In this document: piece by piece, positions 118 through 41,162 of the stretch
Layout of the letters: each line of letters starts with the position of its first letter
Numbering within the stretch: the first letter of the stretch is position 1
Assembly (NCBI GenBank): GCA_014800685.1
Contig: JAAVFQ010000008.1
Coordinates: forward strand, 1 to 64,000
Length of the DNA stretch: 64,000 bases
Direction: 5' to 3'
DNA from: Bacteroidales bacterium
Lineage (GTDB): Bacteria; Bacteroidota; Bacteroidia; Bacteroidales; Muribaculaceae
Notes under the pieces: model-generated
What the model saw: only the letters and a program-made list of their open reading frames with translations
Database searches by the model: none
Told to the model about the DNA's origin: nothing
Translations under genes and position numbers: made by a program

Positions 118-244
118 TTAGGTTTTTAAGAATAAGACAGATGCAAGGCGCTGAGGCCGAGGCTGAAGGGAGCATACCCACGTATGTGACCGAAGCCGAA
201 TGGCGTTAGCAACGCCGCAGATGGTCTATTTCGGACGGATACAC
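118..244. repeat. Stem-loop-rich intergenic segment, possible dispersed repeat
   Basis: This non-coding stretch lies next to the stop codon of the kinase gene. It holds two perfect small hairpins: CATAC-ccac-GTATG at 173-186 and GGCGTT-agc-AACGCC at 202-216. They are flanked by loosely mirrored GC-rich words (gaggctgaagg near 159 and accgaagccga near 190). The base composition differs from the AT-rich spacers elsewhere in the window. I have an impression, not a verified match, that similar sequence recurs between genes in other Bacteroidales genomes. No second copy is seen in this window. Confidence 0.35.
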
Positions 245-4622: not shown

Positions 4623-4649
4623 TAAGTAAGTATTCAAAATTAAACGATA
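4623..4649 (-). repeat. Short end fragment of the TIR repeat family
   Basis: This 27-base stretch (taagtaagtattcaaaattaaacgata) matches the right-hand end of the 187-bp element at 40976-41162, in inverted orientation. It lies in the gmk-nadD gap with no other part of the element. A small hairpin (agcc-ttagc-ggct, then cttttatt) follows at about 4661-4680. Confidence 0.6.
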
Positions 4650-4696
4650 ATATGGGTTGAAGCCTTAGCGGCTCTTTTATTCACATTTCTTTCTCA

Positions 4697-5323: not shown

Positions 5324-5855
5324 CTCAGAAGACTTCAACGAGGACTTCGCGGCTCAACCAGCCGATACCACGCATCTTATGCACATCGTAGCTCTTGCCG
5401 GTGAATATTGCGCTGTGCTGGCTGACGCCCCTTCCATGGAGAAAGAAAATTTCGTGGCTGCCATGCTCCGGCTGCTCCCCTCACTATATATCGAATTCGT
5501 CTCGACTGAGCCCCAGGGCAATGATCCCTCCTTCTTCCTGACTCAATATCTCGAAGAGGATGACTACATGAGCGTCAGCAGAGGAATAGCCGCTCTGCTC
5601 GGCGAAGATGACTCTTATCTTGAGACGATTGAGGAAGATATGAAATATTCCGACACTCCGATCGGGGCCTCTCTCTCCGAAGGACTCACAGACATCTATC
5701 AGGACCTCTTCAATTTCATCACCGAGGTGAGAGAGAGCGAAGGGCTTCAACTTGCCGAGGCCTATGATGCCTGCCACGAAAACTTCGTAATGTATTGGAG
5801 CGCTACGCTATGCAGCGTCTTGCGCCCTCTGAATAATATACGTTACGGCAAATAA
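5304..5855 (+). CDS. DUF5063 domain-containing protein
   Basis: This acidic soluble protein of about 183 residues resembles the Bacteroidetes DUF5063 family, a recall-based assignment. It has no signal peptide or membrane segment and no known catalytic motif. An upstream TTG at 5295 is possible, but the ATG at 5304 is the likely start and overlaps the nadD stop region by 20 bases. The stop codon TAA lies inside a partial copy of the dispersed repeat (aATAAGCATATCTGAC), so the last bases of the gene abut or were replaced by the repeat. Its function is unknown; nadD is its tight partner. Confidence 0.75.
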   Translation: MNDYIDNSEDFNEDFAAQPADTTHLMHIVALAGEYCAVLADAPSMEKENFVAAMLRLLPSLYIEFVSTEPQGNDPSFFLTQYLEEDDYMSVSRGIAALLGEDDSYLETIEEDMKYSDTPIGASLSEGLTDIYQDLFNFITEVRESEGLQLAEAYDACHENFVMYWSATLCSVLRPLNNIRYGK

Positions 5856-5961
5856 GCATATCTGACCGAACCTCAACGTGAAATTTGCCCGAAAGGACAA
5901 GTTTTATAGCTCAAGAGTTTTCCTATAATATTTATCGTTTCATTGTTCGAACTTACTTAAA
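5852..5961 (+). repeat. Partial (right-hand 110 bp) copy of the TIR repeat
   Basis: From AATAAGCATATCTGAC to TTCGAACTTACTTAA this segment matches the right-hand part of the 187-bp element at 40976-41162 in the same orientation. It includes the agatat-aagc-atatct remnant, the gccc-gaaa-ggac segment and the cgttt...cgaacttactta end. It fills the whole gap between the DUF5063 gene and the M18 peptidase, overlaps the stop codon of the former, and ends nine bases before the ATG of the latter. Confidence 0.8.
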
Positions 5962-13232: not shown

Positions 13233-13266
13233 GTTTTTCATCTCACATTTTTCGAACTTACTTAAG
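13233..13266 (+). repeat. Right-end fragment of the TIR repeat family
   Basis: gtttttcatctcac followed by atttttcgaacttacttaag matches the right end of the 187-bp element at 40976-41162 with about 12 bases deleted inside. It ends seven bases before the ATG of the YitT-like gene. Confidence 0.6.
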
Positions 13267-19950: not shown

Positions 19951-20008
19951 AATCAAGTAAAAAAATAGTTCGAATATTAGTATCGTTTAATTTTTCGAAC
20001 TTACTTAG
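19951..20008 (+). repeat. Short, internally deleted copy of the TIR repeat
   Basis: The right end tatcgtttaatttttcgaacttacttag (19981-20008) matches the element at 40976-41162. The stretch aatcaagtaaaaaaatag at 19951-19968 may be a degenerate left end, giving a copy of about 58 bases. It lies directly upstream of the MBL gene. Confidence 0.5.
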
Positions 20009-29207: not shown

Positions 29208-29393
29208 TTAAGTAAGTTCTAAAAATTAAACGATATATATGAGAAGAAACTCTTGTACTATAAAACTTGTCCTTTTGGGCTAATTTCACGTTGTCTCTCA
29301 GTCAGATATGCTTATATCTTCCTTAGATTCGCCGAGAAATTATCTCCTAAATCACTTCGTTTTATATGCACATTAATTTTCTCACTTACTTTA
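29208..29393 (-). repeat. TIR repeat, near-full copy B (186 bp)
   Basis: Read on the minus strand, this segment follows the copy at 40976-41162 almost base for base, from taaagtaagtgagaaaattaatg to cgtttaatttttagaacttacttaaa. Both ends, the agatat-aagc-atatct hairpin and the agcccaaaagga segment are present. It has no open reading frame of note. It lies between the start of the AspT-like gene (29190) and the terminator of the beta-lactamase operon (29398-29434). Confidence 0.85.
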
Positions 29394-29397
29394 GTGG

Positions 29398-29434
29398 AAA
29401 AAAGAGAGAATGACTGTGGCCACTCTCTCTTTTG
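29398..29434 (-). terminator. Terminator of the polyphosphate/beta-lactamase operon
   Basis: On the minus strand AAAAGAGAGAG...CTCTCTTTTTT forms a stem, with an inner tgg-cca, followed by a run of Ts. It lies 17 bases past the beta-lactamase stop codon at 29451. Confidence 0.75.
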
Positions 29435-29450
29435 TAACAAATATATTTCA

Positions 29451-30377
29451 TTAATGGTTTTGCCTCTGAGCATCAAGTCCGCTCTGCACGATTGCCGAGA
29501 TGTCAGCTATTATTTTCTCGGTAGCCTCGTCATCCTCGTACGAGTCGGCCACGAAGACGGCTATCACATAATGACTCCCGTCCGGCCTTTTCACATAGCC
29601 CACATCATTTATGGCCATCTGTCTGCCATCGGGCAGGTTGAATCCGGTGCCTGTCTTGTGGCCTACCGTGTATCCCAGAGGGAGGAGCGGAGCGGATAGT
29701 CTGTTACGGCCGGTAGAGCAGTTTTCCATCAGATTTCTTATTAGAGCCACCGGCTCATCCTGTGGAGCAAGGAGCAGAGTCTCTATCAGCCGGGCCATGT
29801 CGAGGGGTGTCGAGAAATTGTCATAACATCGCGCAGGGTCTTCGTGCATATCTGCTTCACTGCACTCCACAGCCACGCCGTGAATCCCTTTCTCATTAAG
29901 CCATTGCGCTACTTTCCGGGGCCCTCCGGCCTCTCTGAGCAGAATATCGGAGGCGTTGTTATCGCTCATCTGCAATGAATAGGCAAGGAGTTCCGGCACG
30001 GGGATTAAGGCTCTCTCCTCTCCATACTTTTCGAGCATCGGAGACCATGTGTCTCTCTCCAGACTCTTGCCATCCACCTCCACTTCATAGTTCAGGCTCC
30101 CGCCGGCTTGAGCTCTCGCATCGGCAAGGGCAAGCGCTATGGGCAATTTATAGACGCTCAGCATCGGAAAGCTGTCCTTCTCATTGACTCCGTATGTCAG
30201 GTCGCCACAAATCACGGCTACCCCTATTCGCGGATTGCTCTTAGATACATACTCCTTTAATCTGAACTCAAGAGAATCAGTGGCTCCATGCATGGCAAGG
30301 ATTTTCACTGAGAGGAGAATAAGTAATACGAGACCTCTATTCATATTCATCTGACTCATAGTGCGGATGCCCTGCAT
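29451..30377 (-). CDS. Class A beta-lactamase (subclass A2-like)
   Basis: This serine hydrolase of up to 308 residues has all class A motifs: SVYK (SxxK, nucleophile Ser), SDN in MSDNNASDILL, the omega-loop Glu in SEADMH, and KTG in GHKTGTGF. The EAxMH omega-loop form is that of the CfxA/CblA/PER branch found in Bacteroidetes. A signal peptide lies within residues about 11-33 (MNMNRGLVLLILLSVK...). The annotated ATG at 30377 is only one base past the stop of the Cthe_2159-like gene, but ATGs at 30359 or 30350 are also possible. It is the last gene of the VTC/DUF4956 operon, which is unusual for a resistance gene. Confidence 0.9.
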   Translation of the reverse strand: MQGIRTMSQMNMNRGLVLLILLSVKILAMHGATDSLEFRLKEYVSKSNPRIGVAVICGDLTYGVNEKDSFPMLSVYKLPIALALADARAQAGGSLNYEVEVDGKSLERDTWSPMLEKYGEERALIPVPELLAYSLQMSDNNASDILLREAGGPRKVAQWLNEKGIHGVAVECSEADMHEDPARCYDNFSTPLDMARLIETLLLAPQDEPVALIRNLMENCSTGRNRLSAPLLPLGYTVGHKTGTGFNLPDGRQMAINDVGYVKRPDGSHYVIAVFVADSYEDDEATEKIIADISAIVQSGLDAQRQNH

Positions 30378-32103: not shown

Positions 32104-32116
32104 AGTTCGGGATTCA

Positions 32117-32163
32117 GAATCACTTCGTTTATATGTACATTAATTTTTCGCACTTGATTAAAA
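32117..32163 (-). repeat. Left-end fragment of the TIR repeat
   Basis: On the minus strand aatcaagtgcgaaaaattaatgtacatataaacgaagtgattc matches the left end of the element at 40976-41162. It sits in the gap between the DUF2490 gene and the Cthe_2159-like gene, inside the operon. Confidence 0.65.
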
Positions 32164-39820: not shown

Positions 39821-39848
39821 ATTAAGTAAGTTCTAAAATCAAACTAAT
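39821..39848 (-). repeat. Short end fragment of the TIR repeat
   Basis: attaagtaagttctaaaatcaaactaat matches the right end of the 187-bp element in inverted orientation. It lies between two isomerase genes. Confidence 0.5.
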
Positions 39849-39875: not shown

Positions 39876-40766
39876 TCATTTCAGTCTCGTACGGCTCACG
39901 GGGTCATAGCCGATTTTCTTGAGTCTCCCCTCCCTGAGGGCTCGCTTATATAGTCCTGTCATGAGTCGTCGCTCATAGTCGTCGTTTCGCGTGCGGGAGA
40001 GTATCTCTCTGATTTTCGGCTCTGCAAATTCGTAAGGCATGCGCTCGCCGGAATGAATATGCTCGGTCAGATGCAGAAGGTAGGTAGCTCCGTTGTAGGA
40101 TGTGGAGAAGTCGGCGGTCTCCTCCACAAAGGCATCGGCATCAAAAAAGCGATAAGGTATTTGGGCCGATATCTGCTCCCAGTCCACCCACTTGTCTATG
40201 AAGTAGTCATACTGAATGGCCTGCTCCACTCCCACTTTCTCCAGGCGGTCCACCGACTCTTCTGTGGGATGAGCCATCAGGCGTGAGAGCTCGCCCGATT
40301 CTGCCACTTCATCAGGCACCTTCATGTATATCCCTTTCACCAGAGGCTGCTCCAGTACAAGCTCATCGGCATGCTGCTCATAGTAGGCTTTGACGTCCTT
40401 CTCCGGCACTTTCTCGGCCTGACTGCTCCTCACATTGCGCCGATATTCCGCAATTATAAGCTGCCGGCGATATTTTTCCACAAGACGGTTGATGCGATCC
40501 ATGTCGGGAAGAGTCTCCTCCGCGAAGTCCGTAAGCAGCTGATTCTGTATCCAGGAGTCCACTATGGCATTAAAGAGCTCGGCACTATCCTCTTTCGCAA
40601 GTCCCGGTGGCATCTGCACCAGTACGTCACGCATGGTCAGCACTGAGTCGCCCATCTGCAGAAGCACCTCTTCACGGGCATCTGCCGTGAGGGTCTCGTG
40701 TCTGCACCCTGCGAGCATGATTGCTGCAAGACATATCGCTGCTGACTTTAGTCTCAATCCGTGCAT
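39876..40766 (-). CDS. Lipoprotein related to SurA/PpiC chaperones
   Basis: This 296-residue lipoprotein has the signal MHGLRLKSAAICLAAIMLAGC, Cys 21. Its helical N-terminal domain (LLQMGDSVLTMRDVLVQMP...) resembles the SurA chaperone domain. A clear parvulin domain with GG..G motifs is not seen, so catalysis is doubtful. The ATG at 40766 is chosen; the 112 residues before it are not protein-like. A TAACTTTG motif lies 64 bases upstream (40830-40837). It lies between the two isomerase genes at 38455-39810 and 41159-43084. Confidence 0.75.
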   Translation of the reverse strand: MHGLRLKSAAICLAAIMLAGCRHETLTADAREEVLLQMGDSVLTMRDVLVQMPPGLAKEDSAELFNAIVDSWIQNQLLTDFAEETLPDMDRINRLVEKYRRQLIIAEYRRNVRSSQAEKVPEKDVKAYYEQHADELVLEQPLVKGIYMKVPDEVAESGELSRLMAHPTEESVDRLEKVGVEQAIQYDYFIDKWVDWEQISAQIPYRFFDADAFVEETADFSTSYNGATYLLHLTEHIHSGERMPYEFAEPKIREILSRTRNDDYERRLMTGLYKRALREGRLKKIGYDPVSRTRLK

Positions 40767-40829
40767 CTTCTTTCTTTCGGAAGGGAGAGCTTTCCTGCAT
40801 TTCCCGCTCTCTTCGGTCTTATCAATCAG

Positions 40830-40837
40830 CAAAGTTA
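40830..40837 (-). promoter_or_regulatory. Promoter -7 motif of the SurA-like lipoprotein gene
   Basis: TAACTTTG on the minus strand matches TAnnTTTG; the gene starts at 40766. No TTTG is seen at -33. It is preceded by a run of Ts. Confidence 0.6.
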
Positions 40838-40910
40838 CAAAAAAAAATTGATACTTCCGGCCTTTGCCTCTAAAATCGCCCTCGAAGCGCTTGTTAAAAA
40901 CAGTAAAAAA

Positions 40911-40947
40911 AGCGTGTCTGCAACGGGAAGCCCCCGACAGACACGCT
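40911..40947 (-). terminator. Terminator for the 41159-43084 isomerase gene
   Basis: AGCGTGTCTG (40911-40920) pairs perfectly with CAGACACGCT (40938-40947). On the minus strand it is followed by a run of seven Ts. It lies more than 200 bases past the stop codon because a repeat lies between. Confidence 0.85.
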
Positions 40948-40975
40948 GATTCATTTTCTAAGAGCACGTATACTC

Positions 40976-41162
40976 TTAAGTAAGTAGAAAAATTAATGTA
41001 CATATAAAACGAAGGAATTTTGGAGATAATTTCGCGGCGAATCGAAGGAAGATATAAGCATATCTGACTGAGTGCCAACGAGAAATTAGCCCAAAAGGGC
41101 AAGTTTTATTGTACAAGAGTTTTCATCTCACATATATCGTTTAATTTTTCGAACTTACTTAT
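40976..41162 (+). repeat. TIR repeat, near-full copy A (187 bp)
   Basis: The left end TAAGTAAGTAGAAAAATTAA and the right end TTAATTTTTCGAACTTACTTA are inverted repeats of about 20 bases with one indel. Inside are AGATAT-aagc-ATATCT (about 41052-41067) and GCCC-aaaa-GGGC (about 41090-41101), two small hairpins. There is no coding potential. The right end supplies the TAA stop codon of the isomerase gene at 41159-41161. Copy B (29208-29393) is the same sequence inverted. Confidence 0.85.

Follow-up and report, generated by a model that had tools for sequence, protein, structure and literature searches.

To judge from sequence comparison, the dispersed repeat of the window (the whole stretch of 64,000 nucleotides analysed here, C8:1-64000) is probably a miniature inverted-repeat transposable element (MITE) of gut bacteria, about 186 bp long, which would be mobilised in trans by DDE transposases of the IS630 family, insert at TA and conserve a folded core that serves its spread. 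A non-autonomous element of the MITE type had been proposed in the preliminary description, and the many copies, their sharp length mode, a TA duplication and the IS630 ends found in relatives all point to such an element. The regulatory or structured-RNA role named there as the alternative was borne out in part: the structure of the repeat covaries strongly and favours one strand, and the repeat is still of the mobile type.

Copies, ends and target site

The window contains a full-length element of 185 bp with TA at both tips at 40977-41161 (+), delimited by alignment and BLAST, and a second full-length element with about 90% identity to it at about 29209-29392 (-). Both near-full copies had been recognised before, with boundaries that took in one or two flanking bases. 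The six further pieces reported were all recovered as BLAST or end-motif matches, and the window holds at least six fragments: the right half of the element (query 79-186) at 5852-5959 (+), an isolated right end belonging to the second subfamily at 4623-4658 (-), a right-end fragment with an internal deletion at 13233-13264 (+), a 57-bp piece at 19951-20007 (+) that keeps the right end and has decayed on the left, a left-end fragment at 32115-32160 (-) and a lone right end at 39823-39848 (-). The claimed lack of coding potential held for the gene calls, which are home-made, with uncertain predicted starts, and cross neither full copy; mechanical open reading frames overlap both (29253-29699, +, and 39876-41102, -). 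Alignment of the copies placed the terminal inverted repeats of the first element at 40977-40996 (+, left) and at 41142-41161 (-, right, also found by the end-motif scan). The inverted ends described earlier are thus present, and they are not alike throughout: the left-end consensus TAAGTAAGTGAGAAAAATTAATGTACAT and the right-end consensus TAAGTAAGTTCTAAAAATTAAACGATAT differ inside the tip, and the element therefore has polarity. The left end of the window copy is one base short of the consensus.

The genome assembly, probably of a Muribaculaceae species, comprises 2.13 Mb in 33 contigs and is 93% complete. BLAST of 40976-41162 against it, a check suggested at the outset, returned at least 40 near-full copies (the best 40 of 169 candidates), and motif scans allowing up to three mismatches found the core 54 times, against one match in the reversed control. 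The end motif matched 352 times (10 in the control), with 83 left ends and 109 right ends counted in the genome and none of either in the control. The first observation of a repeat family is thereby confirmed, and was an understatement. Among 45 aligned full copies, 43 belong to subfamily 1 and two to a second subfamily with about 70% identity to it. Pairing of 85 left ends (two of the window added by hand) with 100 of the 109 right ends gave 58 pairs less than 6 kb apart and left 27 left ends without a partner; 36 pairs span 184-187 bp, 12 span 56-80 bp, four span 100-119 bp and six have other lengths. Three long left-right pairs, of 2.9-4.0 kb, were considered as a possible autonomous element. 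The element thus has the properties of a MITE, being short and non-coding, with terminal inverted repeats and many copies of fixed length. At one site (C9:7435-7572), two left ends of the second subfamily form a perfect palindrome. The plasmid and phage collections searched gave no match to the element. Two IMG/VR viral contigs (L307 and L308) carry an element like the second subfamily, by eye very similar to the copies of Muribaculaceae Isolate-036.

Nearly all aligned copies start with TAAGTAAGT and finish with ACTTACTTA, some with single changes, while in five fused copies C or CG replaces the first T or TA of the opening; the base just outside the aligned copies is variable. The check for target-site duplications gave an exact result at one clean locus. 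In the relative G332, an element of the second subfamily (L134) lies within ...AAAACAAA[TA]AGTAAGTG...CACTTACT[TA]TCGTTTT..., and the sibling copies L135 and L136 retain the empty site AAAACAAATATCGTTTT, with the sequence AAAACAAATATCGTTTTATTTTTAAGAACTACTTA common to both. This comparison shows at that one clean locus that TA is the target and that it is duplicated on insertion. Nested insertions in the genome of the window were less clean: L018 fits apart from one altered base in the right flank, the insertion at C8:159580 fits on the left side and lacks one CTTA in its right remainder, and each of L025, L026 and L031, which carry deletions, fits on one side. In addition, a partial right end is fused to a full copy at five loci (L011, L015, L033, L035 and L042), the junction being ACTTAC-AAGTAAGT at four of them and ACTTAC-GAGTAAGT at L042; this recurrent fusion may represent a dimer or composite whose parts spread together. 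A right-end sequence with the recurrent junction was also seen joined to a core-less copy (L359).

Fold conservation in the core

The core of the window copy (40996-41118, +) folds into a single long hairpin, which covaries strongly among species. As modelled it has 124 nt and 41 drawn pairs, and its tip module, GAAGGA-AGATAT-AAGC-ATATCT-GACTGA (41044-41071, +), consists of tandem G.A steps flanking a 6-bp hairpin. Two alignments were analysed. The first, A1, was aligned by sequence; of 35 inner domains considered for it, 30 were used, drawn from 14 genomes (G038b, G056a, G056b, L050 and L019 were left out). It showed two-sided changes at 36 of the 41 pairs, and 91.5% of the paired cells could pair, against 74.8% when shuffled and at most 44.3% when slid. 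The second, A2, comprises 53 copies from 50 chosen sources that were aligned to the core model and so lean towards it; two-sided changes were present at all 41 pairs, and 92.5% of the paired cells could pair, against 64.9% when shuffled and at most 45.6% when slid. The helices covary beyond these controls, as those of a structured RNA family do. Included in A2 is L213, which bears a Paenibacillus label; together with L216 and L248 from the same assembly (MAG NALB_7961_12) it carries copies of Bacteroidales type, and the MAG is possibly mislabelled.

The core model built from the A1 structure matched 156 of 297 genomes of the family, in 19 of 30 genera and with the own genome included, and 16 of 393 genomes of the order, four of which belong to the same family. 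DNA BLAST of the element found it in 17 of 61 genomes of the genus, again including the own. No Rfam family matched the element at the gathering threshold; only weak hits with E values of 0.94-6.9 were returned, and those such as BTnc060 (E 2.4) were taken as chance.

One strand of the core appears to be selected, because G-U pairs are in excess, the GAAGGA strand folds better and the G.A steps are conserved on it. G-U cells outnumbered A-C cells by 51 to 15 in A1 and by 88 to 15 in A2, where the sign test gave 26:3 over positions (P = 1.5e-5) and 38:4 over rows, with 11 equal. Of the two strands, the GAAGGA strand reached the lower minimum free energy in 52 of 53 copies when folded as RNA and in all 53 when folded as DNA, with a mean z of -7.3 (40 shuffles per copy), and the tandem G.A tip of the form GA-NN-GA-hairpin-GA-NN-GA was found in 43 of 53 copies compared to 85 of 1,060 shuffles. 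The core would most likely act through a hairpin formed by the GAAGGA...GACTGA strand, either in transcripts that run into it from neighbouring genes or in single-stranded DNA; the tolerance of G-U favours RNA, with single-stranded DNA as the alternative.

Over 43 copies in the genome of the window, core variability was 0.079 at paired and 0.087 at unpaired positions, and single changes to G-U and A-C numbered 39 and 25, 12 of the 39 G-U changes coming from one pair. The copies of one genome therefore decay almost neutrally, and selection seems to act on the lineage that spreads. This similar variability also speaks against the reading of the element as a cis-regulatory RNA of host gene leaders, in which each copy would be kept for its own gene and dispersal would be secondary. 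The one-strand bias of the fold agrees with such a role, as does the position of the right ends, which in 18 of 64 copies are no more than 60 bp upstream of a predicted start, compared to six for left ends. However, both orientations occur: of 41 copies in same-direction contexts, 26 had the right end toward the start (p = 0.12), and a second sample of ends gave 9:6 vs 3:7 (p = 0.23), with 17 of its 71 ends unclassified. A strict sense-strand placement before genes was dropped as a candidate on these two values. Together with the TA insertion and the ends shared with insertion sequences, which indicate mobility, these results make a role in host gene leaders unlikely. Placement of copies inside genes was likewise rejected, with none among the 64 mapped copies under the rule of the script, home-made gene calls and uncertain starts; L148, which is cut at a contig end, was left out of this mapping.

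Slightly less probable still is that the core has no function and folds only because the MITE is palindromic. Other small elements such as RUP and Correia also fold, according to the parts of the literature covered here (PMC2229807, PMC3049150), and the near-neutral decay of copies within one genome would fit. A passive fold, however, would need neither two-sided changes at all 41 pairs, nor the excess of G-U over A-C, nor conserved G.A steps. The core-less copies speak against it as well. Their ends are recognisable and their breakpoints are mostly different, with shared junctions only in L362/L363, at the base of the hairpin, and in L357/L358, so that a limited spread of short core-less forms is possible. 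No core-less form is as numerous in the own genome as the 186-bp form, though intact ends exist, and this, with the differing breakpoints, suggests that the core helps spreading. On the preferred reading, the core would serve the spread of the element and not the host genes at each site, and the hairpin would make a new insertion tolerable or aid movement of the element.

IS630 transposons in related genomes

A transposase with the same ends had been named as a test of mobility, and it was found in relatives, where the shared ends extend over about 31 bp, and not in the own genome. These transposons are of the IS630 family (DDE_3), measure 1.1 kb, encode HTH_23 and DDE_3 domains and form two groups, A and B. 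A transposase together with both ends (at most two mismatches), about 1.1 kb apart, was present at 13 of 35 loci examined; many of the remaining loci are fragments or contig ends, and L154 was excluded from the two-ended loci for a misplaced best left hit. The terminal sequence is TAAGTAATTCAGAAAAATAAATGAACATATC in the G032 transposon (L155) and TAAGTAATTAAGAAAAATAAATGAACATATC in the G045 transposon (L158), and both closely resemble the subfamily 1 left end. The left end of the window copy scores low against the insertion sequence ends because of its missing base, and consensus ends were used instead. The left-end consensus of subfamily 1 matched group A ends at 24-26 of 31 positions and group B ends at 21-23, a difference of a few bases only, while that of subfamily 2 matched group B at 24-27 and group A at 17-21. 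Among 54,792 positions of eight loci, only 11 and 8 reached 22 of 31 for the two consensuses. The right end matched the insertion sequence ends more poorly than the left end did, at 20-25 of 31 for group A. The element thus shares with IS630-dependent MITEs of the RUP type a TA target and ends common to an IS630 transposon, the latter in relatives only, and IS630-family DDE transposases would act in trans on these ends.

The partner transposase was not found in the own, incomplete assembly. The transposase query found nothing there, and PF13358 (DDE_3) gave a single below-cut-off hit, in an unrelated frame of 466 amino acids, in this 93% complete assembly. The profile was above cut-off in five of 24 element-bearing genomes and did not detect DDE_3 in G332 and G007, which carry near-identical element copies. 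Relatives of the transposase query occurred in 24 of 297 genomes of the family. If the same 297 genomes underlie both scans, 140 of the 156 core carriers lack a transposase match and the core is present in 16 of the 24 transposase carriers, a weak co-occurrence. As neither the own assembly nor the majority of element-bearing genomes has the transposase, we read this as gain and loss over time, in which the transposase would have come and then gone; the alternative is that the assemblies are incomplete.

That a single-strand mechanism (HUH, REP/RAYT or IS200-like) moves the element with the hairpin as its substrate is most improbable, since a hairpin conserved on one strand and the deletions at its base in L362 and L363, which suggest folding in single-stranded DNA, would suit it, but the terminal inverted repeats, the TA duplication and ends matching those of DDE_3 transposons do not. 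REP-type elements have, to our knowledge, neither terminal inverted repeats nor a TA duplication.

Known elements and the tip module

The closest counterpart in kind is RUP of Streptococcus pneumoniae, an IS630-type TA MITE for which IS630-Spn1 is the proposed mover; as described in parts of PMC2229807 and PMC3049150, it is a small non-coding repeat with a TA target, IS630-like ends and a folded form, and RUP, ERIC and Correia all fold. In these descriptions RUP differs in its length of 107 bp and its distribution (pneumococcus, less in S. mitis, rarely in other streptococci); the word stem 'covar' does not occur in PMC3049150. The Correia or NEMIS elements of Neisseria are also TA-ended, with inverted ends and a folded RNA, in the description given in part of PMC2229807. 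ERIC (IRU) is likewise a TA-ended hairpin repeat in that part of the source, and the tip of an E. coli copy (L318), AG-GA-GCTTAC-ATAA-GTAAGT-GA-CT, shares the plan of the core tip, with one change in L319. ERIC nevertheless measures 127 bp and has other ends and other stems, and the core model R1 scored L318 at 13.8 bits (E = 2.7) and did not match L319. Since length, ends and stems differ and the R1 score is not significant, the element is no member of ERIC as set by its 127-bp consensus. Within the Bacteroidales, Porphyromonas gingivalis carries the MITEs MITE239, MITEPgRS/464, MITE700 and BrickBuilt; in the part of PMC4596501 covered, P. gingivalis MITE ends are tabulated beside IS5-family ISPg elements and the term 'IS630' has 0 occurrences. 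The Cardinium MITE is IS982-derived, according to the abstract of PMC9769881. The element was not named in the titles and abstract openings of the open-access papers retrieved on MITEs of Muribaculaceae and Bacteroidetes, on MITE covariation with IS630, and on ERIC with IS630 or with 23S-5S spacers. So the mechanism is of a known kind, and the conserved folded core is what is new.

The core tip resembles, as far as sequence comparison tells, ERIC, enterobacterial 23S-5S spacer hairpins and repeats of Campylobacterota. A 28-base tip pattern run over GTDB genome contigs found at least 115 stretches; among the 80 listed, 58 were named as Bacteroidota, one only as 'bacterium', 15 as Enterobacterales, two as Campylobacterota and one as a gammaproteobacterium, and three came from the doubtful Paenibacillus MAG. 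Inspection by eye placed a 5S-like sequence after the match in 14 of the 15 listed Enterobacterales records, and the fifteenth record ends early. Rfam identified 5S in the four Enterobacterales records submitted (L192, L200, L212 and L228) and, in two of them, L192 and L228, also a 23S immediately preceding. In each of the four the tip module belongs to a long hairpin immediately upstream of the 5S rRNA, in L192 and L228 also directly behind 23S. R1 scored 19-27 bits on the spacer hairpins (E 0.0004-0.06), which had been preselected by the pattern. Three Campylobacterota loci (L194, L247 and L340) are hairpin repeats in which CAAGGCG or CAAGGCC and AACGC flank the tip module, and the L247 repeat is TA-ended by eye.

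A 24-base pattern allowing both tip forms matched 1 to 64 times per genome in 15 genomes, chosen for having hits or, in one case, as the own genome; its reversed control had no match in 14 of them and two in one. The module was also considered as general to Bacteroidota, and this was rejected: the longer pattern matched one of 395 sampled genomes of the phylum, the own, with three mismatches. Matches by chance are therefore rare, and the phylum as a whole does not share the tip. That match came through a second repeat only, and the element of the window, having a different tip-stem sequence, gave none. The second hairpin repeat, AGACAGATGCAAGGCGCTGAGG...GAAGGGAGCATACCCACGTATGTGACCGAAGCC...CAACGCCGCAGATGG, lies at 130-233 (+) of the window and has seven pattern matches in the genome. 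Its copies L324, L338 and L349 stand immediately 3' of a terminator-like hairpin, and its CAAGGCG...CAACGC frame is ERIC-like. One tentative possibility, on balance rather doubtful, is that the tip (GA-AG-GA, a 6-bp stem, GA-CT-GA) is a portable functional part reused by unrelated TA mini-transposons of several phyla, with the Bacteroidales elements, ERIC, the Campylobacterota repeats and the hairpins of enterobacterial 23S-5S spacers as its carriers, and would bind a common host factor that aids spread or makes insertions harmless.

Bacterial MITEs are often viewed as passive leftovers. Here, a MITE lineage keeps its fold by compensatory change across the family even as its individual copies decay. 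This suggests a role of the fold in spread. The question of why ERIC, RUP and Correia all fold becomes testable, with two IS630/MITE pairs to compare, and the tip module offers a concrete bait for a binding partner.
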